Source: Chloroflexota bacterium (lineage in GTDB: Bacteria > Chloroflexota > Anaerolineae > UBA4142). From it: a DNA stretch of 37,062 nt. The notes below the pieces were generated by a model. That model was not told the DNA's origin, did not search any database, and was given only the letters and a program-made list of their open reading frames with translations. The stretch spans positions 1 through 37,062 of the forward strand of contig JACRBM010000084.1 in the NCBI GenBank assembly GCA_016219275.1, read 5' to 3'. Of this stretch, positions 11,737 to 25,097 are shown piece by piece. Position numbers and translations under genes: made by a program. Positions within the stretch are counted from its first letter, which is position 1. Each line of letters opens with the position of its first letter.

Positions 11737-12076
11737 GCGAGTTTTGCTTGTTGGTCAAGGTCTTTTCCTCGATGGGTTGACGCGTCTGCTGAGTGAACAG
11801 CGGAGCGTCTGCATTATCGGCGCGGCGCGTGATTGGGCGGAGGCGGAAACGCTCGTCCAGACGCATCACCCGGATACGGTGATCGTTGACCACGCGGATA
11901 CCGCGCCGGCATTTCAATCCGCATCTTCCGCGCCTCAGGTCATCTATCTCACGCTCGCCGAAAATCGGATGGTCGTTCACAGTCGCCAAGAGTTGGCGGG
12001 TCCGACTGCTTCCGATTTGGTGCGCGTGATCAAGGGCAAAACGCGCCAACGCCGCGCGAAGAAGGTGACGCGATGA
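11729..12076 (+). CDS. Stand-alone degenerate receiver-like protein
   Basis: A 115-residue protein resembling the first half of a NarL-type regulator: SSRVLLVGQGLFLDGLTRLL corresponds to the first strand and helix of a receiver, and PDTVIVDHADTAP to the strand carrying the phospho-acceptor. The usual acidic pair after the first strand is missing (GQG instead of a DD-like pair), Asp in VIVDH is kept, and the output helix-turn-helix is absent, replaced by a basic tail (KGKTRQRRAKK). It could be an unphosphorylated regulator, an adaptor, or a decaying gene. ATG at 11729 is chosen over TTG at 11711 because of the promoter position. It overlaps the next gene by 4 bases (ATGA), so it is coupled to the SCO gene. 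Confidence 0.6.
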   Translation: MSSRVLLVGQGLFLDGLTRLLSEQRSVCIIGAARDWAEAETLVQTHHPDTVIVDHADTAPAFQSASSAPQVIYLTLAENRMVVHSRQELAGPTASDLVRVIKGKTRQRRAKKVTR

Positions 12077-12732
12077 GTCGTTGGCGTCTCCTCTACGCGC
12101 TCGCGGCATTGCCGGTGATCGCAGTCATCGCGTTCGCGACATTGCGCCCAATCCAAGTTTTGCCACGCATCACACTTTCACCTGGTTTTTCACTCACCGA
12201 TCAAAATAACGCGCGTTTGACGAACGAAGATTTGCGCGGGCGCATCACGCTGTACAATTTCACGTACGCGAATTGCGCCGCGCCGTGTCCGCAAACGAGT
12301 TCTGTGTTTCGCGCGTTGCAAACCGAGTTGCGCGCGACCGACACGAACGGGATTCCGGTTTCGCTCGTGACGATTTCGTTCGACCCCGAGCGCGACACGC
12401 CGGAAAAATTGCACGCGTACGCCGCGCAAGTGGGTGCGGATTCGTCCGTGTGGCGCATCGCGACCGGCGACGCGACGCGGCTCAAGTACGCGCTGGGCGG
12501 CGGCTTTGGTCTGTACTATGCGCGCAACGCGGACGGCGCTTTCACCTTTGATCCGTTGTTCGTGTTGGTGGATGGCTGGGGCATCATTCGCGCGTACTAC
12601 AAAACGGCGACGCCGACGACCGACCGTCTCGCGCGCGATATTCGCTTGATCGCGCAAGAAGCGCGCAACAGCGAGGGCGCGGCGCGGTACGCGTACGAAG
12701 CCGCGCACTTGTTCTTGTGTTATCCACCGTAG
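12073..12732 (+). CDS. SCO1/SenC-family protein lacking the usual copper-binding His
   Basis: A 219-residue thioredoxin-fold protein anchored by one N-terminal membrane helix (about 5-24). CAAPC (Cys68, Cys72) is the CxxxC of SCO proteins, and the surrounding TLYNFTYANCAAPCPQTSS and VSLVTISFDPERDTPEKL blocks are typical. In SCO copper chaperones a conserved His lies just before the LVDxxG strand; here the sequence is FTFDPLFVLVDGWG, with no His at that point. It may work as a thiol-disulfide reductase for the CuA site rather than as a copper donor, with the second SCO (13723) as the metal chaperone. This division of labour is inference. It is coupled by ATGA to the gene before it. Confidence 0.88.
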   Translation: MSRWRLLYALAALPVIAVIAFATLRPIQVLPRITLSPGFSLTDQNNARLTNEDLRGRITLYNFTYANCAAPCPQTSSVFRALQTELRATDTNGIPVSLVTISFDPERDTPEKLHAYAAQVGADSSVWRIATGDATRLKYALGGGFGLYYARNADGAFTFDPLFVLVDGWGIIRAYYKTATPTTDRLARDIRLIAQEARNSEGAARYAYEAAHLFLCYPP

Positions 12733-12745
12733 ACAAAATTCGGAG

Positions 12746-12780
12746 TTCGGAATTCGGAATTCAGAATTCCGAATTCCGAA
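12746..12780. repeat. Hairpin repeat between SCO and heme A synthase genes
   Basis: Two 17-bp perfect inverted arms built of the AATTCGG unit (12746-12762 and 12764-12780) around a single A. The repeat is AT-rich and unlike the flanking coding DNA. Confidence 0.85.
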
Positions 12781-12803
12781 TTTGGGCTTTCGGCTCTAGA
12801 GAA

Positions 12804-13721
12804 ATGAAAACAACCTCTTTCAGCAACTATGCCTGGTTCGTGCTCGTCCTCAACATCGCGGTGATCTTGTGGGGCGCGTATGTGCGCGCGAGCGGTTCGG
12901 GCGCCGGGTGCGGCAGTCATTGGCCCCTCTGCAACAATCAGGTCGTGCCAGCCGCGTCCCAGGTTGCCACGCTCATCGAATTCGCGCATCGCGTTACGAG
13001 CGGACTCGCCCTCTTGATGGTGCTGGGGATGCTCGTGTGGGCGCGGCGCGAATTCCCGGCGGGACATCCGGCGCGCGCTGGCGCGGCGTTCTCAATGGCG
13101 ATGATGATTACCGAAGCGGTCGCCGGCGCGGGTCTCGTGCTGTTCAACTGGACCGCGTTCGACATTTCACTCGGACGCATCATCGTGATGCCGGTGCATC
13201 TCTTGATTACGTTTTCGCTGCTCGCCGCGCTATCGTTGACGGTGTGGTGGGCATCGGGCGGCGCGGCGATTCGATGGCGCGGGCAAGGCGCGCGCGCGTG
13301 GATGCTGGGAATTGGATTGTTCGTCACTTTGTTGATGGGCATGGCGGGCGCAGTCACCGCGCTCGGCGACACGGTTCTGCCGGTCGCCTCGCTCACACCT
13401 GGACATTACGAATCGCTTTCGCCAGCGGGGCAACTACTCGTCAGTTTGCGCGTGTGGCATCCGCTGATCGCGGTTGCCGTCGCCGCGTATTTGTTGTTCG
13501 TCGTCAATACGTTGCGCGCATCCAAGATGGACGCGGACGCGCGGCGTTTCTCGACGACGTTGGTCGTCCTGTTCGCAATTGAATTAGGCGCGGGCGTGTT
13601 GAACATTTATTTGCTCGTGCCGATCTGGATGCAGTTGTTGCATTTGTTACTCGCCGATCTTGTGTGGATCGTTTTGATCTTGTTGACCGCCGCGACCTTG
13701 CGGTCGGCGGAAAGCGGTTGA
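12804..13721 (+). CDS. ctaA: Heme A synthase (CtaA/COX15)
   Basis: A 305-residue membrane protein with eight predicted helices, the length of Bacillus CtaA. It oxidises the C8 methyl of heme O to the formyl group of heme A, needed by aa3 and ba3 oxidases. Diagnostic features: the extracellular cysteine pair in CGSHWPLC (Cys36, Cys43) after GAYVRASGSGAG, Glu59-x2-His62 (EFAHR) on the second helix, His132 (MPVHLL), His219 (RVWHPL) and His280 (LLHLLL), the expected heme ligands of the two halves. ATG at 12804 follows the hairpin repeat; upstream in-frame codons translate the repeat and are rejected. The heme O synthase (ctaB) is not in the window. Confidence 0.93.
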   Translation: MKTTSFSNYAWFVLVLNIAVILWGAYVRASGSGAGCGSHWPLCNNQVVPAASQVATLIEFAHRVTSGLALLMVLGMLVWARREFPAGHPARAGAAFSMAMMITEAVAGAGLVLFNWTAFDISLGRIIVMPVHLLITFSLLAALSLTVWWASGGAAIRWRGQGARAWMLGIGLFVTLLMGMAGAVTALGDTVLPVASLTPGHYESLSPAGQLLVSLRVWHPLIAVAVAAYLLFVVNTLRASKMDADARRFSTTLVVLFAIELGAGVLNIYLLVPIWMQLLHLLLADLVWIVLILLTAATLRSAESG

Positions 13722-13722
13722 G

Positions 13723-14334
13723 ATGAAATCGAAACGGGTAACGCTCATCGCGGTGATTGTCGTCGGGCTGGTTCTGCTCGGCGCGACGGCGTTCATCGGC
13801 GGACGTTTGTTGACGCCGTACGCGTTTCACGGCGCAGTTTTACAATCGCCGCTCCCGGCGCAAAACTTTACGATGATGAGTCACCTGGGACAACGCATGT
13901 CGCTCGAAGATTTTCGCGGCAAGTTCGTTTTGCTTTATTTCGGTTATACGATTTGCCCGGATGTGTGCCCGACGACATTGGCGGAACTCGCCAACGCGCG
14001 CAAGTTGCTCGGCAAAGAGGGCGACCAAATGCAAGTCGTGATGGTGACGGTGGACCCCGCGCGCGATACGCAAGCCGTGCTCGCCAATTACATGACGCAC
14101 TTTCATCCGTCGTTCATCGGTTTGACCGGCACGGAAGATCAAATCGCGCAGATCGCGACGTACTATGGCATCTACTACGAAAAGCAAGAAAGCGATTCCG
14201 CGCTCGGTTATCTGATGAATCACACCGCGACGACGATGGTCGTGGATCGCAACGGATACCTGCGACTCGTATTTCCGTATGGGACGTCGGCGCAAGACAT
14301 GGCGTCCGATTTACAATACTTGATGTCGAGGTAA
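13723..14334 (+). CDS. SCO1/SenC-family copper chaperone for cytochrome oxidase
   Basis: A 203-residue protein with one N-terminal membrane helix (about 7-27) and an outward-facing thioredoxin-fold domain. All three copper ligands of SCO proteins are present: Cys78 and Cys82 in TICPDVCP and His167 in YLMNHTATTMVVD. The GKFVLLYFGYT strand and VTVDPARDT block are also canonical. It should deliver copper to, or reduce, the CuA site of the oxidase subunit II encoded at 14972. It starts 2 bases after the heme A synthase stop and is followed 5 bases later by the PCu(A)C gene, forming a tight assembly-factor operon. Confidence 0.95.
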   Translation: MKSKRVTLIAVIVVGLVLLGATAFIGGRLLTPYAFHGAVLQSPLPAQNFTMMSHLGQRMSLEDFRGKFVLLYFGYTICPDVCPTTLAELANARKLLGKEGDQMQVVMVTVDPARDTQAVLANYMTHFHPSFIGLTGTEDQIAQIATYYGIYYEKQESDSALGYLMNHTATTMVVDRNGYLRLVFPYGTSAQDMASDLQYLMSR

Positions 14335-14339
14335 ACGAA

Positions 14340-14786
14340 ATGAAACGCGTGATGTTGGTGGTGAGTGTTGTAGTGTTGTGGTTGGTTGGCTGTGCCAGTC
14401 CCACGCCTGCCGCGCCAAAAATCGCGGTCGAAGGTGTGTGGGGGCGCCCTTCGCCGGCAACGGCTCAAGCCGGTGCGTTCTACATGATGATTCGCAACAC
14501 TGGTTCTGTCGCAGACAAGTTGACTGCCGCGAAATCGAACGCGTGCGGCACGGTCGAACTGCACGAGTCGTACATGATGGCGAACGGCGCGATGGGCATG
14601 CGAATGGTCACGGGCGGCACGATGGACATTCCGGCGAACGGGCAAGTGGAACTCAAAGTCGGCGGCTTGCACATCATGTGCATTGAAAAAAAAGTGGAGC
14701 TCAAGTCTGGAGTCAAACTACCGCTGACCCTGGTCTTTGAAAAATCGGGGCAGATCAACGTGGATGTCGAAATTCGTGAGCAATAA
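14340..14786 (+). CDS. PCu(A)C-type copper chaperone lipoprotein
   Basis: A 148-residue lipoprotein (lipobox LVGC, Cys18) of the DUF461/PCu(A)C family, which binds Cu(I) outside the membrane and passes it to SCO or directly to CuA. VWGRPSPATAQAGAFYMMI is the conserved N-terminal block. Copper ligands are visible as His75 (ELHES), the Met cluster Met85-Met89 (AMGMRM) and His111-x-Met113 (GGLHIM). It follows the second SCO gene directly. An additional Cys114 next to the HxM motif is slightly unusual. Confidence 0.94.
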   Translation: MKRVMLVVSVVVLWLVGCASPTPAAPKIAVEGVWGRPSPATAQAGAFYMMIRNTGSVADKLTAAKSNACGTVELHESYMMANGAMGMRMVTGGTMDIPANGQVELKVGGLHIMCIEKKVELKSGVKLPLTLVFEKSGQINVDVEIREQ

Positions 14787-14858: not shown

Positions 14859-14975
14859 ATGAAAGAAGAACATCCCAAAGGGACATTGACGATCATGCTG
14901 ATCTTTGCGCTCTCGATCGTCGTGTTGTGGTCTTGGGTCTTTTTGACTCTGATGGAAAGGGGAATGACGCGATGA
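14859..14975 (+). CDS. Cytochrome c oxidase subunit IIa (ba3 type), 38 residues
   Basis: A 38-residue single-helix protein. The start (MKEEHPKGTLTI) and the helix that follows closely resemble the small subunit IIa of Thermus ba3 oxidase, which begins with an acidic/Lys segment, PKGAL, one helix and ends in a short ARG-type tail; here the end is ERGMTR. It packs beside subunits I and II and replaces the second helix missing from subunit II. AGGAGGA lies 5-8 bases before the ATG, and the gene overlaps subunit II by 4 bases (ATGA), as in other ba3 operons. Confidence 0.88.
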   Translation: MKEEHPKGTLTIMLIFALSIVVLWSWVFLTLMERGMTR

Positions 14976-15454
14976 TTCACGTTGACACTTACGAACGCTA
15001 TTGGATCATGCTGACGGCTGTGGTGTTGATCGTCTTTACCGCGGCGGTGGGCATCTCCGGTTTTATGATGGGCGTCCAAGTGCCGGTGCCCGAGGCGCTG
15101 GTCAACCCGAATACGGTCGCCACGGATCCCACGAGCCGATTTGCCAATCCTGGGTTGCGCCAACTCGCGCCGAATCGCTATGAGGCGTACATTCGCGCGG
15201 GGTCGAGTCCGTGGAAATTCGTGCCGGACAAACTCGAAGTACCCGTCGGCTCGACCGTGACGTTCTACGTGACGAGCGTGGACGTTCAACACGGCTTTAA
15301 ACTGGAAGGCACGAACATCAACGTGCAGATTTTGCCCGGGCAAGTGAGCAAGATGACCGCGACATTCAAGACTCCCGGCAAGTACCCGTTCATCTGCACC
15401 GAGTACTGCGGCGTCGGTCACCAAAACATGTTCGGCGAACTGACCGTGAAATAA
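14972..15454 (+). CDS. ba3-type cytochrome c oxidase subunit II
   Basis: A 160-residue protein with one membrane helix (about 12-33) and a cupredoxin domain outside the membrane. The complete CuA site is present: His107 (DVQHGF), Cys142, Glu144, Cys146, His150 and Met153 in CTEYCGVGHQNM. Length and single helix are those of ba3 (B-family) subunit II, not of the two-helix A-family. It receives electrons from a c-type cytochrome, probably one of those encoded downstream (17194 or 22165). The true start is the ATG in the ATGA overlap with subunit IIa. Confidence 0.95.
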   Translation: MIHVDTYERYWIMLTAVVLIVFTAAVGISGFMMGVQVPVPEALVNPNTVATDPTSRFANPGLRQLAPNRYEAYIRAGSSPWKFVPDKLEVPVGSTVTFYVTSVDVQHGFKLEGTNINVQILPGQVSKMTATFKTPGKYPFICTEYCGVGHQNMFGELTVK

Positions 15455-15481
15455 CGCGTCGTCATGTCCAAAGGAGGAGAA

Positions 15482-17119
15482 ATGATTTTAGGGGCTGAAC
15501 GAAAAATTGCCAGTTGGCATATGTTGGTTGCAATCGTGGCGTTGTCCATCGGCACGCTCTTTGGTCCGCTCCAGGCATTGGAGCACATGGGCATCAATCT
15601 CTATCCCGCGTTGCAAAGCGTCGGTCTGCAATCGTATTATCAAGGTCTGACCTTGCACGGCGTTTTGAACGCGTTGGTGTGGACGACGTTTTTCATCACC
15701 GGTTTTTTCACCTTGACCGTGACCTACACGCTCAAGAAAGCACTGGTCTATCCCATGCTGAGTTGGGCGGCGTTCATCGTGATGGTCGTCGGCTTGGTGA
15801 TGGCGGCGATTCCACTCTTGCTCAACATGGCGTCGGTGCTGTACACCTTGTACCCGCCAATGCAAGCGCCGTGGTTCTATTATCTTGGTTTGACGCTCGT
15901 CGTCGTCGGTAGTTGGATGAGCGGTTGGAGTTTGCTGCTGACCTGGGCGGCGTGGCGCAAAGAGAACAAGGGCGCGACGACGCCGTTCATCGCGCTAGGG
16001 TCGCTCATCACCGTCGTGTTGTGGCAAATCTGCACGCTCGGCATCGCGGCGGAAATCTTGGTGATGCTGTTGCCCTGGTCGCTTGGATTGTTGCCGGGCG
16101 TGGACGCGCAACTTGCGCGCACGTTGTTCTGGTTCACGGGTCATCCGCTGGTTTATTTCTGGTTGTTGCCGGCGTACGTGTCGTGGTACGGCATGTTGCC
16201 CAAGCAAGCCGGCGGCAAGTTGTTCAGTGAACCGCTCGCGCGTCTTGCGTTCTGGTTGTTCCTCTTGCTTTCAACGCCGCTCGGTTTCCACCATCAATAT
16301 GTGGACCCCGGCATCTCGGAAGGTTGGAAGTACTTGCACGCGATCCTGACCTTCTCCGTGTTCTTCCCCAGCATGTTGACCGCGTTCACGGTCACGGCGT
16401 CGCTCGAAACGGCGGGGCGTGCGCGCGGCGCGAAAGGTTTGCTCGATTGGATCTTGAAACTGCCGTGGAACGAACCATCGTTTACCGCGCAAGCCGTCGC
16501 GATGATCATCTTTGCATTCGGCGGCATCGGCGGCATCATCAACGCGTCGTACAACGTCAACCTCGTCATTCACAACACAGCGTGGGTGCCAGGTCACTTG
16601 CACCTGACCGTTGGCACGGGCGTGACGCTCACGTTCATCGGCATCTTGTACTGGCTCTTGCCGCACCTGACCGGCAAAGCGTTATGGGGCACGGGCTGGG
16701 CACGCGCGCAATCGTGGTTGTGGCTTGTTGGAATGGGACTCATGTCGAACGGCTTGCACCGCCTCGGTTTGCTAGGCGCGCCGCGCCGCACGATGCTCGG
16801 CGTTGCGACGGACAATTATGGCACGCCCGATTGGTTGTTCCCGCGTTTGGAAACCGGTATCGGTGGTACGATCCTGCTCGTTTCGTTCATCTGCTTCTTG
16901 GTCGTCGTCGTCAAGACGATGATGAACAAAGAAACTGCCAAGGTCGAGATGCCGATTGCCGAAGCGTTGCAACCAGAAGGTATTCCCGCGTGGCTCAACA
17001 ATTGGCAACCCTGGCTCGTCGGCACGGTCGTGTTGATCGTCATCGCGTACGGTCCGGTCCTCGTGTCGCTGATTAGTCAAGTGCAGTTGGTCTCGCCCGG
17101 TTTTAATGTTTGGAAGTAA
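15482..17119 (+). CDS. ba3-type (B-family) cytochrome c oxidase subunit I
   Basis: A 545-residue protein with about 13 membrane helices, the catalytic subunit reducing oxygen to water and pumping protons. Heme b is held by His59 ([10 protein letters not shown]) and His374. The CuB site is His221 (GHPLVYFW) with the cross-linked Tyr225, and His270 and His271 (FHHQY). His372 in [11 protein letters not shown] is the heme a3 ligand. The HPLVY motif without the Glu of A-family enzymes and the YFWLLPAY block place it in the B (ba3) family, which uses a K-type proton channel and has high oxygen affinity. AAGGAGGA precedes the ATG. No subunit III is encoded, as is normal for this family. Confidence 0.96.
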
Positions 17120-17193: not shown

Positions 17194-17607
17194 ATGCGTA
17201 AATTAGTTTTACTGATTGCGTTGCTCGCGATCACCGCGTTGGTGTTGTCCGCGTGCGGCGGCGGCGGTGGTGGCGCGGCGGGCGCGGGCGATGCGGCGCG
17301 CGGCAAAGCGCTCTACAACAAGAGCACCATCGGCACCAAGTCTGCGGAAGGATGCGTCGCGTGCCACAAGTACGACGAAAAAGAAGGCAAGGCGGAAAAG
17401 GCGCCGTACACCAAGGGCACTGGCGCGCGCGCGGCAACGCGCGTCGCGGGCATGAGCGCGGAGGAATACATCAAGGAATCCATCACCAAGCCCGATGCGT
17501 ACGTCGTCGAAGGTTTCAACAAGGGCGACATGTACCAGAAATTCAGCGCGGAACTTTCGGCGCAAGAGATGGCGGATTTGATCGCGTATCTGTTGAGCGA
17601 AAAGTAA
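17194..17607 (+). CDS. Monoheme cytochrome c lipoprotein
   Basis: A 137-residue protein with a lipoprotein signal (LSAC, Cys21), a Gly-rich spacer and one class-I-like heme domain: Cys54-x2-Cys57-His58 (CVACH) with Met113 (KGDMYQKF) as likely distal ligand. The C-terminal helix SAQEMADLIAYLLSEK is the usual c-type ending. Tethered to the outer membrane face, it is well placed to carry electrons between the Rieske/cytochrome b proteins and the CuA site of the ba3 oxidase. AGAGGAGAAG precedes the ATG. An insertion of charged residues after the CxxCH (DEKEGKAEKA) lengthens the loop before the methionine. Confidence 0.93.
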   Translation: MRKLVLLIALLAITALVLSACGGGGGGAAGAGDAARGKALYNKSTIGTKSAEGCVACHKYDEKEGKAEKAPYTKGTGARAATRVAGMSAEEYIKESITKPDAYVVEGFNKGDMYQKFSAELSAQEMADLIAYLLSEK

Positions 17608-17619
17608 AACCGTATTGCG

Positions 17620-17659
17620 TAGTGCGTATGGCGTAACGCGCGTTACGCCATACGCACTA
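17620..17659. repeat. 40-bp perfect palindrome
   Basis: The sequence from 17620 to 17659 equals its own reverse complement (core GGCGTAACGCGCGTTACGCC). It is in the 76-base gap between the cytochrome c and flavoprotein genes. It could form a cruciform or a very stable RNA hairpin. Confidence 0.9.
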
Positions 17660-17683
17660 TGCACTGCTTGATTGGAAGAGATA

Positions 17684-19708
17684 ATGGCTGACGCAAAATA
17701 CAACGTCACCGTTCCAACGATAGAGCACTGGCGCGCGATGGTGAAATGCCAAGCCGCGTGCCCGGTGCTGACCGACGCGCGCGCGTATGTGACCGCGGTC
17801 GCGCGCGGCGAACTTGAACTGGGTTATGCGATCGCGCACGAACCGAACCCACTTTCGACAGTGTGCGGACGCATTTGCGGCGCGCCGTGCGAAAAAGCGT
17901 GTCGGCGCGGCGCGGTCGGTCCCGATATGGAACCGGTCGCGATTCGTCCGCTCAAGCGCGTCCTCACCGAGCGGTACGGACCCGAAGCGGTTCAACAATT
18001 GCCCGGCAAGGGCGACAAGACGAGCCGCATTATCCCCCTCGAGGCGATTGGCGTAGGCACGCCGCAAGCCGCGGCGCGTAAAGAAAAAACGTTTCCGGGA
18101 ACGGGTCTCGATCAGGTGCATTCCCCGGCGCGCTGGTCGCGCGATTCGTTGCGCGCGCTCGCCGCGACGCCGGGACGCAAACGCGGCAAGGTCGCGATCA
18201 TCGGCGCGGGTCCGTCGTCGCTCGCGGCGGCGAACGATCTCGCGTTGCTCGGACACCACGTCACGATTTATGAAGCCGGTCCGAAGACCGGCGGCATGAT
18301 GCGATATGGCGTGCCGATCTATCGCATTGACCAACAAGCGATGGACCTCGAAGTGCAATCCATCCTCGACTTGGGTGTGACGATTCATTTCAACACGCGC
18401 GTCGGGCAAGATATTTCGCTCGCGGACATTCGCAAGCAACACGACGCGGTGTACCTGGGTCTCGGTTTGATGCAGGGACGCCGGCTTAACATCGAAGGTT
18501 CAGACCTCGACGGCGTGATTACCGCCGTGGATTTGTTGCTCAATTACAACCTGGGTTACAAGGTCACGCTCGGCAAGCGGGTGATTGTCGTCGGCGGCGG
18601 CGATGTCGCGATGGATGCCGCGCGCACCGCGTTGCGGCTGGGGCAAACGACCGCGCAACAGCAAGCTGACCTGGGGCAGACCGAAGCGCGTTCCGAAGAA
18701 GAAGAGGAAGGCGTCAAGACCGCGCTCGATGTCGCGCGCACCGCGTTGCGGCTCGGCGTCGCGGACGTGAAAATGATTTCGCTCGAATCCTGGGACGAGT
18801 TGCCCGCCTCGCGCTTTGAAATCGAGGAGGCGCTCGAAGAAGGCATCCAACTCAATCCGCGATTCGGTCCGAATAAAATTCTCGGCAAAGACGGCAAGGT
18901 CGTCGGGTTGGAAACAATCGAGGTTGCGTCGGTGTTCGACGAGAATCGCCGGTTCAACCCCAAGTTCAAACCGGGCACCGAGAAAACCTGGGAATGCGAT
19001 ACGGTCATTCTCGCGATTGGTCAATCTGCGGACCTCACTGCGCTCGGCGGCGCGGACGATGTCAAGATGTCGCCGCGCGGTCTGGTCGAGATCAACCCGG
19101 CGACCGGGCAAACTTCGGCGCAGGATGTGTTCGCCGGCGGCGATGTGGCGTACGGTCCGCGTCTCATCATTCACGCCGTGCGCGATGGACACCTCGGCGC
19201 GCTCGGCATCGAAGAACATATCCAGGGTCGCGCGCTCACGACGACCGTCGAAACCGAGTGGCAGGAGTTGCCGAATCACGCGATGCCTGCCGATTGGACG
19301 AAACGCGAACGCACGAAAATTCCGGGCTTGCCGGTGGATCGTCGCACCGGTCTCACGGTCATCGAGCTGGGTTACTCGGAGCAGCAAGCCGCGGATCAAG
19401 GTCTGCGTTGTCTTGAATGCAGTGTCAATACGATCTTTGACGGAACAAAATGTATTTTGTGCAACGGGTGCGTGGACGTGTGCCCGTGGGATTGTCTCAA
19501 GATTGTGCGGCTCGATCAGATTCAAGGCGATGCGACGCTGACCCAGGTCATCGAGACGCACGCGGCGAACGCGCCCGAAGGCAAGGTCGCGGTGATGCTC
19601 AAGGACGACACGAATTGCACGCGCTGCGCGCTCTGCGCCGAACGCTGTCCGACCGATGCGATTACGATGGAAGCGTTTCGGTTTAAGGAAGTTCTCAGTT
19701 ATCAGTAA
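17684..19708 (+). CDS. GltD-like FAD/NAD(P) oxidoreductase with N- and C-terminal iron-sulfur clusters
   Basis: A 674-residue soluble protein. Residues 20-75 hold the cysteine set of GltD-like proteins (Cys22, 26, 61, 65, 69, 73; two 4Fe-4S clusters). Residues 168-200 form the FAD dinucleotide fold ([20 protein letters not shown]), 299-320 the NAD(P) fold ([17 protein letters not shown]), and 480-490 ([12 protein letters not shown]) the second FAD-contact block. The C-terminus adds a 2[4Fe-4S] ferredoxin (Cys590/593/596/600 and 645/648/651/655). This architecture moves electrons between NAD(P)H and iron-sulfur partners. Its position before Rieske/cytochrome b genes suggests it docks to that complex. 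Residues 311-320 and 349-358 are near-identical (ARTALRLG), an internal duplication. The last residues (SYQ) and stop lie in repeat DNA. ATG 17684 has GGAAGAG upstream. Confidence 0.9.
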
Positions 19709-19760
19709 CCAGTATACAGTGAACAGTAGACTGTTTACTGTTTACTGTTCACTGTTCACT
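19695..19760. repeat. CAGT-rich hairpin repeat
   Basis: AGTGAACAGTA (19718-19728) and TACTGTTCACT (19743-19753) are inverted arms within a run of CAGTTA/CAGTGA/ACTGTT units. The upstream end of the run encodes the last residues and the TAA (19706-19708) of the flavoprotein. Confidence 0.8.
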
Positions 19761-19781
19761 ACTGACACAGGAGTAGCATTC

Positions 19782-20504
19782 ATGGCTTCATTTGTAGATT
19801 TTGTAACTCGCTCGCGCGTCTGGCGGTCATTCTTTCGCCACGGCTTGCCCGACAATCCACTTGACCGTTCGCTGGTGATGACGACGAATCTCTTTTTCCA
19901 TTTGCATCCGGTCAAGGTGAATCTCAAGAGTCTCAGAGCGACCTATTCGCTGGGGCTGGGAATTATCACGACAGTTTTGTTTCTGACCTTGGCGTTGACT
20001 GGCATCTTGTTGATGTTCTACTATGTGCCTTCGGTCGAGCGCGCGTACGTGGATATTGTGGAACTCCAAACCGGCGTGCCGTTCGGACAGATGCTCCGCA
20101 ACTTGCATCGCTGGGGCGCGCACCTGATGGTGCTCGCGGCAGTGCTGCACATGGCGCGCGTGTTTTACACCGGCGCGTACAAACCACCGCGCGAATTCAA
20201 CTGGGTCGTCGGCGTTGTGCTGCTCATCCTCACGCTCGGTGCGAGTTTCACCGGCTATCTCTTGCCCTGGGATCAACTTTCGTTCTGGGCGATCACGGTC
20301 GGCACGAGCATCGCCGCGTACGAACCGGTCATGGGTTCGACCGTCAAACGCATTTTGCTCGGCGGTCCCGAAGTGGGGCAAGAAGCGTTGACGCGTTTTT
20401 ACGCGTTGCACATTATGGTGATTCCCGCGCTATTGTTCTTGCTCATCTCACTGCACATCTGGCGCGTGCGGAAAGATGGCGGCTTGGCGGCGAACGAGCA
20501 ATAG
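19782..20504 (+). CDS. Cytochrome b6-type subunit of a Rieske/cytochrome b complex
   Basis: A 240-residue membrane protein with four core helices carrying two b hemes. Heme ligands are His109 and His123 on the second helix ([20 protein letters not shown]) and His210 and His225 on the fourth ([20 protein letters not shown]); 14 residues between the second pair is the b6f-type spacing. [13 protein letters not shown] is the quinone-site loop. The N-terminal FFHLHPVKV stretch is common in split cytochrome b of Chloroflexota and related phyla. With subunit IV (20607) and the Rieske protein (21513) it would oxidise menaquinol. AGGAG precedes the ATG. The stop codon is part of the following repeat. 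Confidence 0.94.
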
Positions 20505-20592
20505 TGCGATAGTTGGATAGTACGATAGTGCGATAGTTACTCCTCTTACTGAAGACTATCGCACCAACGCACTAACGCACTATTGCACCAGT
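20502..20592. repeat. GTGCGATAGT hairpin repeat
   Basis: Several copies of a GTGCGATAGT-like unit (20504-20538) face inverted ACTATCGCAC-like units (20555-20588); the best pair is 20528-20537 with 20555-20564. The first TAG is the stop codon of the cytochrome b6 gene. Confidence 0.75.
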
Positions 20593-20606
20593 AAACGGAG
20601 ATAGCA

Positions 20607-21380
20607 ATGTCAGATACACAACTTGAACCTTTTGCAAAAGTCGGCACGAAAACCTACAGTCTCGTCGAAGTCGTGCGCGGCGCGCCGACGACGATGGCAG
20701 ACAAGGGTCCCGACAATACCTTGTTCGCGTTTCCCATCGTCGCGATTTTAGAAACGTTGATCTTGTTAGGCGTCAGCGTCGTGTTGATGGCGATTTCGCT
20801 GTTCAAAAACGCGCCGCTCGAAGAATTGGCAAACCCGCTCGTCACGACCGACCCGGCGAAAGCGCCGTGGTATTTTATGGGTTTACAAGAATTGCTCGAG
20901 CACATGCACCCCACCGTTGCCGGCGTGCTCATCCCGACCATCGCCGTGCTGTTCTTGATCGCGATTCCGTACCTCGACAATCAACGCGCCGGCGCGGGGA
21001 CATGGTTCGGGGATGCTCGTGCAAAACGCATCGTGCTGTTCACCGCGCTTTACGCGCTCGTGATCATGCCGATCTATGTCCTGGTGGATAACGCGTTTCC
21101 GTTGCGCGAATTGTTGCGCGACGCGCTGCCGGCAGAGGTCGCGCAAGCGATTCTGCCGTTTCTGATCATGTTCGTGCTCTCAGCGATCCCGGCGGTCGTC
21201 GTGTGGCGGACTCAACGCGGCGGCGGCGACGCGCGCGAGTTGTTGCTCGCGTTATTTACGATGCTCTTTATCACGGCGGTCGTGTTGACGATTACCGGCT
21301 TTTTGTTCCGCGGACCTGGCTTCAAGTTGTACCTGCCGTGGGATATGCCGGGCGGTTACGATCCGCTGAACAATTTCTGA
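20607..21380 (+). CDS. Cytochrome b subunit IV-like protein
   Basis: A 257-residue membrane protein corresponding to the C-terminal half of cytochrome b. After a soluble N-terminus (1-40) come a helix (about 41-65) and PLVTTDPAKAPWYFMGLQEL, the counterpart of the PEWY quinol-oxidation motif (here APWY), then LLEHMHPTVAGVLIP and three or four further helices. It is longer than plant-type subunit IV (about 160 residues), having extra C-terminal helices, as usual for split cytochrome b in several bacterial phyla. GGAG precedes the ATG. It works with the b6 protein at 19782 and the Rieske protein at 21513. Confidence 0.88.
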   Translation: MSDTQLEPFAKVGTKTYSLVEVVRGAPTTMADKGPDNTLFAFPIVAILETLILLGVSVVLMAISLFKNAPLEELANPLVTTDPAKAPWYFMGLQELLEHMHPTVAGVLIPTIAVLFLIAIPYLDNQRAGAGTWFGDARAKRIVLFTALYALVIMPIYVLVDNAFPLRELLRDALPAEVAQAILPFLIMFVLSAIPAVVVWRTQRGGGDARELLLALFTMLFITAVVLTITGFLFRGPGFKLYLPWDMPGGYDPLNNF

Positions 21381-21389
21381 GAGCAGAAT

Positions 21390-21422
21390 AGAATCCAGGT
21401 TTCTCGAAGAAACCTGGATTCT
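21390..21422. repeat. 15-bp hairpin repeat, CCAGGTTTCT family, copy 1
   Basis: AGAATCCAGGTTTCT (21390-21404), loop CGA, and the exact complement (21408-21422). The core is shared with the hairpin at 28802-28830. It has no T-run, so it is not an obvious terminator. Confidence 0.85.
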
Positions 21423-21512
21423 GGCGAAGGTATTTGGGGTAAACAAGGAAACAACCAAACTCGTCTCTCTGTCTGCACGTTTCCTAGTCTATTTAATGAG
21501 GGGATACCCACG

Positions 21513-22010
21513 ATGACTGTGAATGTGACACATCCGAAAAAATCTGGGATCAATCGTCGTCAATTCTTAGGAATTGCCTGGGCTGGTTCGCTCGCGTTGT
21601 TGGGCGGGCAAATGATCGCCGCGCTGCTCCGTTTCGTGCAACCAGTGAGCACGAGTGGTTTTGGCGGCGTCGTGCGCGCGGGCAAGGTTGCCGAGTTCGC
21701 ACCCGGCAGTGTCAATCTGATCAAAGCCGGGCGCTTTTTCCTGTATCGTTTGGAGAACGCAAGTTTCCTCGCGATGTGGCAAAAATGCACGCACCTGGGT
21801 TGCAGTGTGCCCTGGATTGAGGACGAAAAACAATTTCATTGCCCGTGTCATGGGTCCATCTTTGACAAGACCGGGCAAGTGACCGGTGGTCCCGCGCCGC
21901 GTCCGCTCGATATTTTTCCGGTGACGATCAAGGACGGCGAAGTGTATGTGGATACCGGCAACCCAGTCCAGCGCGCCAAGTTTGACCCGAGTCAGACGAC
22001 GAAAGCGTGA
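21513..22010 (+). CDS. Rieske 2Fe-2S protein
   Basis: A 165-residue protein. The N-terminus has a twin-arginine motif (NRRQFLG, residues 14-20) before a hydrophobic anchor (21-41), as expected for Tat export of a folded iron-sulfur protein. The cluster is bound by Cys92 and His94 (CTHLGC) and Cys110 and His113 (CPCHGS), with Cys97 and Cys112 as the stabilising disulfide, so this is a high-potential bc/b6f-type Rieske. GGPAPRPLDIFPV is the conserved Pro loop. It takes one quinol electron and hands it to a c-type cytochrome. It is preceded by the two cytochrome b halves and followed by a triheme cytochrome c. Confidence 0.96.
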   Translation: MTVNVTHPKKSGINRRQFLGIAWAGSLALLGGQMIAALLRFVQPVSTSGFGGVVRAGKVAEFAPGSVNLIKAGRFFLYRLENASFLAMWQKCTHLGCSVPWIEDEKQFHCPCHGSIFDKTGQVTGGPAPRPLDIFPVTIKDGEVYVDTGNPVQRAKFDPSQTTKA

Positions 22011-22017
22011 ACGAACG

Positions 22018-22141
22018 TGTCATTGCGAGCCGCGTAGCGGCGAAGCAACCCTCAACCCCATCCTAGCCCTCCCCTTCGTAAGGGGAGGGTTGGGAGGGGG
22101 TAGATTGCTTCGTCAGCAAAAACCGCCTCCTCGCAATGACA
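22018..22141. mobile_element. MITE-like repeat with a second repeat nested inside
   Basis: TGTCATTGCGAG (22018-22029) and CTCGCAATGACA (22130-22141) are 12-bp terminal inverted repeats. Inside is an unrelated C/G-rich palindromic unit with CCCTCCCCTT (22067-22076) and AAGGGGAGGG (22080-22089). The outer type, with its CGAAGCAA continuation, is related to the GCGAAGCGA repeat at the end of the dinB gene. Confidence 0.75.
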
Positions 22142-22164
22142 GTGGCTGAACAAGGACATCAACT

Positions 22165-23295
22165 ATGCAAAATGAAAATTACGAACGATACATGTGGATT
22201 GGCTTGGGGCTAACAGTCTTGCTCATCATCGCGCTGGGATTCGCGTGGTTGACCGAGCCAGACCGGATTGCCGCCGCCGGCAAAGCGTTGAACAAGATCA
22301 GTTTGACGCGCGGACGCGAATTGTACGTGGACAACTGCACGTCGTGCCACGGCACGCGCGGCGAAGGCGGGGTTGGTCCCGCGCTCAACAACAAAGCGCT
22401 GTTAGCGAACGCGTCCGACGAAGTGCTCGTCGAAACGATTCGCGCCGGGCGTCCGAACACGACGATGCCCGCGTGGGCGCAAGCGAACGGTGGTCCGTTC
22501 ACCGACGAAGACGTTCGTTACGTCGTCTCGTTTCTGCGCGCCTGGGAACCCAACGCGCCAGTGATTGCGACCGATTTCAAACCGAGCGCCTCGCGCGGTG
22601 CGACCTTGTTCGCGAGCACCTGCTCGCTCTGTCATGGCGAAGAAGGCAAAGGCGCGACCGCGCTCGCGTTGAACAACTCCACGCGTCTCAAGAGTCTTAA
22701 CGACACCTGGTATCGCCAGACGATTGCGAATGGTCGCCCGGCGAAAGGGATGCCGACCTGGGGCACTGTGCTCTCGCCCAATCAAATCGAAGACCTCGTC
22801 GCGTTGTTCGGCGCATGGCGCACCGGCGAACGCGTATTGCCTGACACGACCGTCGCCGATTTGCTTGAATCGGCGTTGTACTCGCTCGATCAGCGCGACG
22901 CGCCGGATGCGCTCTTTTATTTGAAACGCGCCAAGTCGGGAGCGTTCGGTCCGGCGCTCGCCAAATTCGATCCGCTCATCGCGCTCATCGAAAAAAATCC
23001 GGATCAGGCGCTCAAAGACTTGAAGACACTACGCGACGAGTGGCCCATCGGCAACGCGACCAAAGGCAAAAAAGTGTACAACGACGCGTGCGCCGGGTGT
23101 CACGGTTCGGAGGGACAAGGCGGCGTGGGACGCAAACTCAAGCCGAACGAGTTCATGCAAAAAAGCACGAACGCCGAAGTGCTGATGCTTGCGTTGAACG
23201 GACGCCAAGGCACGGCGATGCGGAGTTTTGAAGGCAAACTGACCGAGGAACAGCTGGCGGACGCCATCGCGTTCTTGCGGACTTGGCAAAAATAA
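22165..23295 (+). CDS. Membrane-anchored triheme cytochrome c
   Basis: A 376-residue protein with one N-terminal helix (about 10-29) and three heme domains: Cys58-x2-Cys61-His62 (CTSCH), Cys153-x2-Cys156-His157 (CSLCH) and Cys309-x2-Cys312-His313 (CAGCH). The likely Met ligands are Met101 (TTMPAW), Met196 (KGMPTW) and the Met in TAMRSFE. A helical insert (about 225-295) separates the second and third domains. Its place after the Rieske gene suggests it acts as the cytochrome c1 equivalent, collecting electrons and passing them to the mobile cytochrome c or the CuA subunit. Confidence 0.92.
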   Translation: MQNENYERYMWIGLGLTVLLIIALGFAWLTEPDRIAAAGKALNKISLTRGRELYVDNCTSCHGTRGEGGVGPALNNKALLANASDEVLVETIRAGRPNTTMPAWAQANGGPFTDEDVRYVVSFLRAWEPNAPVIATDFKPSASRGATLFASTCSLCHGEEGKGATALALNNSTRLKSLNDTWYRQTIANGRPAKGMPTWGTVLSPNQIEDLVALFGAWRTGERVLPDTTVADLLESALYSLDQRDAPDALFYLKRAKSGAFGPALAKFDPLIALIEKNPDQALKDLKTLRDEWPIGNATKGKKVYNDACAGCHGSEGQGGVGRKLKPNEFMQKSTNAEVLMLALNGRQGTAMRSFEGKLTEEQLADAIAFLRTWQK

Positions 23296-23375: not shown

Positions 23376-25097
23376 TTGGATCAATCGAAAGATGTTTTGC
23401 CGGGCGCGGATCCAACCAAGGATTGCGCGCCGGTGGTCGTCGAAGAGGCGGAAGAGACCGCGCCAGAATTGAGCGTGGTGGTGTCCGCTGAGACGGCGGA
23501 GCAACCCATCTGGATGCCGCGCCGCCACGCGATACTGCGCTGGCTCGAACGCGCGATGTTGTGGATCGAAGCGCCGGTGACGCGTTGGGTCGGCGCGCCG
23601 CAGATGAATCCGTTTTATTACACCGGTCCCATCGCGGTGTTTTTGTTCGGCGTGATTTCTCTCACCGGCTTGTTCCTCGTTATGTTTTTCCAGGTCGGGT
23701 TCGATTCGTCGTACGTGTTCATCGCGCGCGTCGAAAGTCAGCCGCTCGCGCGCGTCGTGCGCGCGGCGCATCGTTACGCGTCCGACGCGTTGATCGTCGT
23801 CGCGCTCATTCACGCGTGGCGTCTGTTCGTGATGAATCGCTGGCGCGGAGCGCGGTGGCTCGCGTGGGCATCGGGTATCGCGATGCTGTTGCCGATCTGG
23901 CTGGCTGGTGTCACCGGTTATCAACTCGTCTGGGATGAACGCGCACTCGCGATCACGATCGCGTTCGACAAGATGTTGCAACGCGGATCGTACTCGGTGA
24001 TGAATTTGCTCGCGGTCAATCAAAAAGGCAACAGTTGGATTTTTGTGATGATCGTACTGGTGGCTCACCTCGCGCTATCGGTGTTGATCGGCGTCGCGGT
24101 GTGGACGCACCTCGCGCGACTCAATCGTCCCAAATGGATTGCGAGCCGGTACTGGATGGTCGGCGCGACGATTGTTATCCTGGTTGTCTCTGTTCTCGTG
24201 CCGGTTGGCATGTTGCCCAAAGCCGATTTGAATCGCGCGCCCGACGCATTTCCGATTGATTTGCTCTATCTGTTCTACCTTCCCGGCGCGTTCAGCGCGA
24301 CGTTCAACTCACCCTGGTTGTGGCTCGGCTCGCTCGCGTTGCTCGGCGGGCTGGCGCTCTTGCCCTGGCTCTTGCCGCGCGAAGAAACATCGCCGCGTGT
24401 CGTGATTGACAAGGCGCGTTGCACGGGGTGTACCAAGTGCGCGCTCGATTGTCCGTACCGCGCGATCACGATGACGCCGCGCACGGACGGCAAGCCGCAT
24501 AAATTTATTGCGATCGAAAATCCCGACCTGTGCGTTTCGTGCGGCATTTGCATTGGCTCGTGCGATGTGCGCGCAGTGTCGCTGGGTGCAGGCACGGTGG
24601 ACCCGTTGTGGCAGACTGTGTTGGCGCGCGTCGCACGCGCCCAGGTGCAGAACGACGATCTGCGCGTGGTGGTGACGTGCGAACGACACACCGCGCACGC
24701 CGATGTGACGCGCGCGCACGCGACGGTCATCGCGTTGCCGTGTGTCGCCGCGGCGAGTCCCGATTTGATCGGACGCATCCTCGCTGCGGGCGCGCGCGAG
24801 GTGCGCGTGATCGGTTGTCCGCCGGACGATTGCGCGAATCGCGAAGGCAATACCTGGGAAGAGGCGCGCTTGACGGGTGCGCGCTTGCCGCGTTTGCGAA
24901 ACGAGTACGTCGGCAAGCCGATTCTGCGTCGCTGGCTTGCGCCGGGTGAATTCGCGCGCGGCATCGCGAACGGCGAAGCGGACGCGTCGCTCACGCGCAA
25001 AATGACGCGGCGAAATTATATCGTCGGGTTTGGTTTGCTCATCCTCGTCTTGCTCGCGCAGATTTGGTTGACGAATGTGATGTTCCAACCCTGGTAG
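23376..25097 (+). CDS. Cytochrome b fused to 2[4Fe-4S] ferredoxin and an MvhD-like domain
   Basis: A 573-residue fusion. Residues 75-335 form a diheme cytochrome b: ligands His132/His146 (AAHRYASDALIVVALIHAWR) and His231/His245; the loop reads GYQLVWDE, and the region matching PEWY is degenerate (APDAFPIDLLY). Residues 341-400 form a ferredoxin (Cys349/352/355/359; Cys386/389/392/396). Residues 425-505 resemble the delta subunit of F420-nonreducing hydrogenase (MvhD): VIALPCV, then VIGCPPDDCANREGN, corresponding to the GCxxGDC-x-GN signature; Cys435, 456, 481 and 486 could bind a 2Fe-2S cluster. A final membrane helix is at 547-567. It would link membrane quinone/heme chemistry to a low-potential soluble partner. 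The start is TTG with CGAGG upstream; the stop codon is in the following MITE-like element. Confidence 0.87.
   Translation: MDQSKDVLPGADPTKDCAPVVVEEAEETAPELSVVVSAETAEQPIWMPRRHAILRWLERAMLWIEAPVTRWVGAPQMNPFYYTGPIAVFLFGVISLTGLFLVMFFQVGFDSSYVFIARVESQPLARVVRAAHRYASDALIVVALIHAWRLFVMNRWRGARWLAWASGIAMLLPIWLAGVTGYQLVWDERALAITIAFDKMLQRGSYSVMNLLAVNQKGNSWIFVMIVLVAHLALSVLIGVAVWTHLARLNRPKWIASRYWMVGATIVILVVSVLVPVGMLPKADLNRAPDAFPIDLLYLFYLPGAFSATFNSPWLWLGSLALLGGLALLPWLLPREETSPRVVIDKARCTGCTKCALDCPYRAITMTPRTDGKPHKFIAIENPDLCVSCGICIGSCDVRAVSLGAGTVDPLWQTVLARVARAQVQNDDLRVVVTCERHTAHADVTRAHATVIALPCVAAASPDLIGRILAAGAREVRVIGCPPDDCANREGNTWEEARLTGARLPRLRNEYVGKPILRRWLAPGEFARGIANGEADASLTRKMTRRNYIVGFGLLILVLLAQIWLTNVMFQPW

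Follow-up and report, generated by a model that had tools for sequence, protein, structure and literature searches.

A cytochrome b carrying a ferredoxin-FlpD module is a probable electron-transfer partner of ba3-type O2 reductases and eNOR in Chloroflexota

The window analyzed here, a 37,062-nucleotide stretch of DNA from a Chloroflexota bacterium (GCA_016219275.1, contig JACRBM010000084.1), contains a gene whose product joins a membrane cytochrome b to two ferredoxin motifs and an FlpD/MvhD-like domain. Such a fusion raises the question of which redox system it serves. A preliminary description, made from the letters alone, proposed that it connects the quinone pool to a soluble Hdr-like or flavin partner. 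No earlier characterization of the protein was found in the open-access literature. We asked whether the fusion is a genuine protein family, how it is folded into the membrane, and which genes accompany it.

Domain order, family, and topology of the fusion protein

The gene encodes 573 amino acids from a TTG start, ahead of which a GAGG sits in the window. Its features are as follows.

23376..25097, + strand: cytochrome b - 2x[4Fe-4S] - FlpD - TM fusion protein (573 aa, TTG start)
23595..24371, + strand: cytochrome b core, helices A-F (residues 74-332), with H132/H146/H231/H245; Pfam Cytochrome_B; fold of a relative matched to bc1 cytochrome b (Z ~18-22); His in 70/70
24399..24575, + strand: two 4Fe-4S motifs (residues 342-400); Pfam Fer4_7/Fer4; eight Cys in 70/70
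24663..24872, + strand: shortened FlpD/MvhD domain (about residues 430-499), with C435, C456, C481, and C486; Pfam FlpD 1.2e-7; all four Cys matched in an alignment with the genome's own FlpD proteins
25008..25073, + strand: terminal membrane helix (residues 545-566), predicted counterpart of cytochrome b helix G from secondary structure and the fold alignment of a relative's model

In the Pfam search, Cytochrome_B (5.8e-10), Fer4_7 (2.4e-8), and FlpD (1.2e-7) were all matched above their curated cut-offs. The preliminary description had read four b-heme ligands with 13-residue spacing, eight ferredoxin cysteines in two sets, an MvhD/FlpD-like part with PC, GCPPDDC, and GN, and a last membrane helix, and all of these were recovered. 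The predicted heme ligands H132 and H146 are separated by 13 residues, as are H231 and H245; the ferredoxin cysteines are C349/352/355/359 and C386/389/392/396; and the FlpD part carries P455-C456, G480-CPPDD-C486, and G491-N492.

The FlpD match (PF02662) scored 32.2 bits against a cut-off of 22.3 over residues 447-499, and it covered positions 26-78 of the 123-position profile, so the domain is not full-length. The same profile was matched in 10 of the 11 family members scanned. The NCBIfam HdrA2 model spanned the ferredoxins and FlpD as a single block (residues 343-500, 5.8e-12), and its C-terminus was matched by all 11 members tested; the cassette was therefore likened to the C-terminal part of an HdrA-FlpD fusion. 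In an alignment with the HdrA-fused FlpD that the same genome encodes, each of the four FlpD cysteines of the window protein has a counterpart. Compared with the free FlpD of that genome, four of five cysteines are kept and the second Cys of the CxxC is missing. As judged from the sequence, this cysteine set suffices for a putative [2Fe-2S] cluster.

To define the extent of the family, a profile search was run against 396 genomes of one Chloroflexota class, most of them multi-contig drafts in which "absent" means below the stated E-values. It returned about 80 near-full-length copies, of which 70 loci were examined. When 400 genomes from the phylum were searched at E<=1e-60, no members turned up outside this class, and one further copy lies on a plasmid of the alphaproteobacterium Defluviimonas (NZ_CP156080.1). 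The four heme histidines and the eight ferredoxin cysteines are invariant in 70 of 70 relatives; the fusion is therefore a real protein family and not a chance arrangement. An assembly artifact was rejected, since the gene order of the window recurs in four other, related genomes.

The FlpD cysteines are less uniform. All four are kept in 60 of the 70 members and all four are lost in the remaining 10, which form one clade on the eNOR side of the family tree (L033, L071, L074, L077, L078, L081, L084, L103, L109, and L112). The FlpD domain of this clade still keeps its Asp/Arg/Glu residues. The PEWY motif of quinol oxidation is degenerate, as had been noted; across the family it is replaced by x-[ILMV]-D, with the Asp (D295 in the window protein) present in 69 of 70. 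The HMM-HMM alignment of this region with subunit IV was weak (E 0.068). Because PEWY is degenerate and a Rieske gene accompanies only 10 of 70 loci, the preliminary view that this cytochrome b probably does not perform a standard Q-cycle is a reasonable one on sequence grounds.

To place the ferredoxin-FlpD module relative to the membrane, P0013, a relative of full length that shares 46% identity with the window protein, was modeled from 70 sequences, with a pLDDT of 87.8 and a pTM of 0.88; an earlier model from 11 sequences was too poor (pLDDT 52.6) and served for secondary structure only. The P0013 model matched bc1-type cytochrome b with Z scores of 18-22 and rmsd values mostly of 3-5. In many of these fold alignments, model residues ~98-630 were paired with cytochrome b residues 24-343, a range that takes in the helix at 602-622 of P0013. 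The helix after FlpD therefore corresponds to helix G, and the model shows the ferredoxin-FlpD module inserted in the predicted cytoplasmic loop that joins helix F to helix G. A cytoplasmic side for this module agrees with the B-C and D-E loops, which are rich in Arg/Lys. Most relatives carry, after the last helix, an outer all-beta domain that the window protein does not have; in Pfam this domain had no match, and cytochrome b took up the matches when the whole model was searched by fold.

Genes accompanying the fusion protein

In the window, the fusion gene closes a run of co-oriented genes that extends from SCO1 through a triheme cytochrome c, and unrelated genes (UDP-glucose dehydrogenase and others) follow downstream.

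12073..12732, + strand: SCO1/SenC copper chaperone
12717..13721, + strand: CtaA/COX15 heme A synthase
13723..14334, + strand: second SCO1/SenC
14427..14762, + strand: PCuAC copper chaperone domain
14927..15454, + strand: oxidase subunit II, CuA-type motif
15464..17119, + strand: ba3-type (B-family) heme-copper oxidase subunit I, Tyr present (GHPLVY), best matched by solved ba3 oxidases
17194..17607, + strand: monoheme cytochrome c lipoprotein, homologous to the fused cytochrome c domain of relatives
17672..19708, + strand: GltD/NfnB-like FAD/NAD(P) flavoprotein with two C-terminal 4Fe-4S motifs
19782..20504, + strand: cytochrome b6-like subunit
20607..21380, + strand: subunit IV-like cytochrome b C-terminal subunit
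21513..22010, + strand: Rieske protein
22165..23295, + strand: triheme cytochrome c

Against solved oxidases, subunit I matched the Thermus thermophilus ba3 entries best, at ~1e-141 or lower; a second ba3-like oxidase followed at 1e-110, and the single remaining one reached only 1e-8. By these matches, the window oxidase is of the ba3 type and keeps its active-site Tyr. The Rieske protein has its own b6-like subunit in the operon. In the module at 17672-23295, subunit IV shows APWY instead of PEWY. Imperfect inverted repeats with arms of 24-34 nt and 79-96% complementarity lie in the operon spacers (17616-17663, 19711-19760, 20504-20588, and 22052-22104), and one of them lengthens the ORF ahead of the cytochrome b6 gene.

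Across the family, terminal reductases are the constant company. With about 8 kb fetched on each side, 60 of the 70 loci contained subunit I of a heme-copper reductase and 57 contained subunit II, and several of the loci lacking subunit I are interrupted by contig ends. In the 46 good genomes, with reductase classes assigned by bit-score bands and motif-checked only for the loci examined, a family member was located within 12 kb of 30 of 36 ba3-type oxidases and 17 of 21 eNOR-like reductases, compared with none of 52 A-family oxidases. O2 reductases and eNOR were told apart by the replacement of the cross-linked active-site Tyr by Gln (PMC8756737), which typed 39 loci as O2 reductase and 20 Chloroflexota loci as eNOR; the plasmid copy is also beside an eNOR. 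The family tree has two fully supported sides that follow this typing exactly, one with 39 O2-type and no eNOR loci and the other with 21 eNOR and no O2-type loci. Several genomes hold one member of each side. On the Defluviimonas plasmid (L135:10567-16538), genes for eNOR, heme O synthase, SCO, the cytochrome b-FlpD protein, and a hemerythrin lie together, which suggests horizontal transfer of the set.

A small cytochrome c is a probable further link to the reductases. It is fused at the end of 20 of 70 members, all of one clade, and the free cytochrome c of the window (17194-17607) is 38% identical to the fused domain of a relative. The neighborhood, the split of the tree, and the cytochrome c homology therefore argue that the fusion protein works with these reductases, probably through the small cytochrome c.

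The same loci also hold copper genes (Cu-ATPase in 21 of 70, a SafE-like gene in 20, SCO1 in 29, and PCuAC in the window), and this brings in a different reading, in which the protein, as a CcoG-like assembly factor, would reduce cupric copper at the membrane and so assist the loading of the ba3 oxidase or eNOR. CcoG combines two [4Fe-4S] clusters with an Ig-like domain at its periplasmic C-terminus, and its gene shares the ccoGHIS cluster with that of the Cu-ATPase CcoI (PMC7558416). The two [4Fe-4S] motifs of the fusion, the terminal helix followed by an all-beta domain in its relatives, and the finding that no CcoG scored above cut-off in 46 genomes all fit this reading. However, an assembly reductase would need neither the invariant heme ligands nor the cytochrome c fused in 20 of 70 members, the window protein has no outer domain, FixG_C was unmatched in Pfam scans of 11 members, and the CcoG model was absent among the NCBIfam matches listed. 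A redox partner explains the clean co-segregation with reductase chemistry at least equally well. A copper role thus accounts for the copper genes but not for the hemes or the cytochrome c fusion, and we consider it unlikely.

Electron flow and candidate partners

The likeliest role of the fusion protein, in our view, is to carry electrons across the membrane as a partner dedicated to ba3-type O2 reductases and, in the sister clade, to eNOR. In this mechanism, two b hemes held by the cytochrome b core would span the membrane, and the [4Fe-4S]x2-FlpD module between helices F and G would reach into the cytoplasm, giving a putative chain from a [2Fe-2S] cluster at the FlpD tip through two [4Fe-4S] clusters and the two b hemes to the outer face. 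There, electrons could be exchanged, in either direction, with the small cytochrome c, which would feed CuA of the oxidase. The terminal reductase would thereby be supplied by a path other than the usual bc/ACIII route, most likely with electrons that come from the quinone pool or from a flavin or ferredoxin donor in the cytoplasm. For the operon of the window, the flavin partner would likely be the GltD/NfnB-like protein, in keeping with the flavin half of the preliminary proposal. The simplest version is a donor role, in which the oxidase would receive electrons from the cytoplasm or from quinone, and it would suit rapid removal of O2 or NO. Outward electron flow would cost membrane potential; a donor role would therefore be sensible chiefly where it provides a sink or clears NO or O2.

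Several observations weigh against the partner role. A bc-type cytochrome b or ACIII occurs in 46 of 46 genomes, so the fusion is not needed as a complex III, and replacement of complex III by it was rejected as unlikely. The flavoprotein, a candidate for the FlpD partner, is found in only 10 of 70 loci, and it was rejected as the general partner of FlpD. The absence of all four FlpD cysteines from ten members of the eNOR clade and the copper-assembly genes in the same neighborhood also count against it.

The other half of the preliminary proposal, connection of quinones through FlpD to a soluble Hdr-like complex, draws on the FlpD cysteine set, which is identical to the one in the genome's HdrA-fused FlpD, on the HdrA2 matches of 11 of 11 members, and on HdrA-like genes in the genome of the window. 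These genes lie outside the window, in a NiFe-hydrogenase locus with HdrA-like and free FlpD genes (L124, G000:C40) and in an HdrA-FlpD/HdrC/HdrB-like set beside a fumarate-reductase/AprA-type flavoprotein (L125, G000:C42). Because its genome has these hydrogenase-linked and HdrABC-like loci, an Hdr role is possible there. As a general role, however, an Hdr partner was rejected: in 18 of 46 family-bearing genomes HdrA was unmatched at E<=1e-60, and in several the fusion protein is the only FlpD. Within the window, no partner gene for Hdr, hydrogenase, or formate dehydrogenase was found, and oxidase genes adjoin the fusion instead. We consider the Hdr connection highly improbable.

A bolder reading of the mechanism is a Rieske-free quinol bifurcation, in which quinol would be oxidized near the outer heme and the reduction of O2 or NO would pull one electron outward through cytochrome c, while the other would pass via both b hemes and the Fe-S/FlpD arm to an acceptor of low potential in the cytoplasm, such as NAD(P)+ or ferredoxin. 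It is the boldest of the readings and gains from the predicted cytoplasmic position of that arm, the Asp at the PEWY site in 69 of 70 members, the association with strong oxidants, and the likeness of the window's flavoprotein and Rieske/b6-like module to anammox complexes (PMC12954380). Yet PEWY is degenerate and its HMM alignment weak, most loci have no Rieske or other obvious acceptor for the first electron, and no conserved cytoplasmic acceptor was found among the 70 loci. We regard bifurcation as distinctly improbable.

If the fusion protein is the electron path to these reductases, the ba3 oxidases and eNORs of a large bacterial group would be served by a dedicated cytochrome b whose redox arm reaches into the cytoplasm, an arrangement that appears in no open-access description that we found of these respiratory chains. 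Such a path would bear on the electron supply of eNOR, on the removal of O2 and NO by these organisms, and on whether a cytochrome b can connect NAD(P)H or ferredoxin with terminal oxidases. It would also give a testable role to proteins that, like the Defluviimonas plasmid homologue, are annotated only as "cytochrome b N-terminal domain-containing protein".

Comparison with known systems

With FlpD/MvhD (PF02662) and the HdrA2 C-terminus, the fusion protein shares the ferredoxin-FlpD order and a Pfam match above cut-off, whereas its own domain is shortened and sits inside a membrane cytochrome b, and most of its loci have no hydrogenase or Hdr context. It resembles the cytochrome b of bc1/b6f in fold, in the four histidines, and in helices A-G, but it has no PEWY, holds an Fe-S module in the F-G loop, and in most loci is unaccompanied by a Rieske gene. 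The CcoG/FixG proteins of cbb3 operons are similar in their two 4Fe-4S motifs, membrane helices, outer beta domain (in the relatives), and copper-gene neighbors; the fusion differs in its predicted heme-binding cytochrome b and its FlpD domain, and no FixG_C match was found.

For the anammox Rieske/cytb-NAD(P) oxidoreductase complexes, quinol-driven NAD(P) reduction has been proposed (PMC12954380). Like Kuste4569-4574, the operon of the window has b6-like, subunit IV-like, Rieske, multiheme c, and NAD(P)-type flavoprotein genes, but in this Chloroflexota bacterium a ba3 oxidase and the cytochrome b-FlpD protein are added, and relatives of the fusion often have these two without the Rieske module (flavoprotein/Rieske module in 10 of 70 loci). 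In the open-access descriptions of eNOR and ba3-type oxidase operons, no account of the fusion protein was found, and mention elsewhere is possible; it is with these operons that the family shares its conserved neighbor genes.
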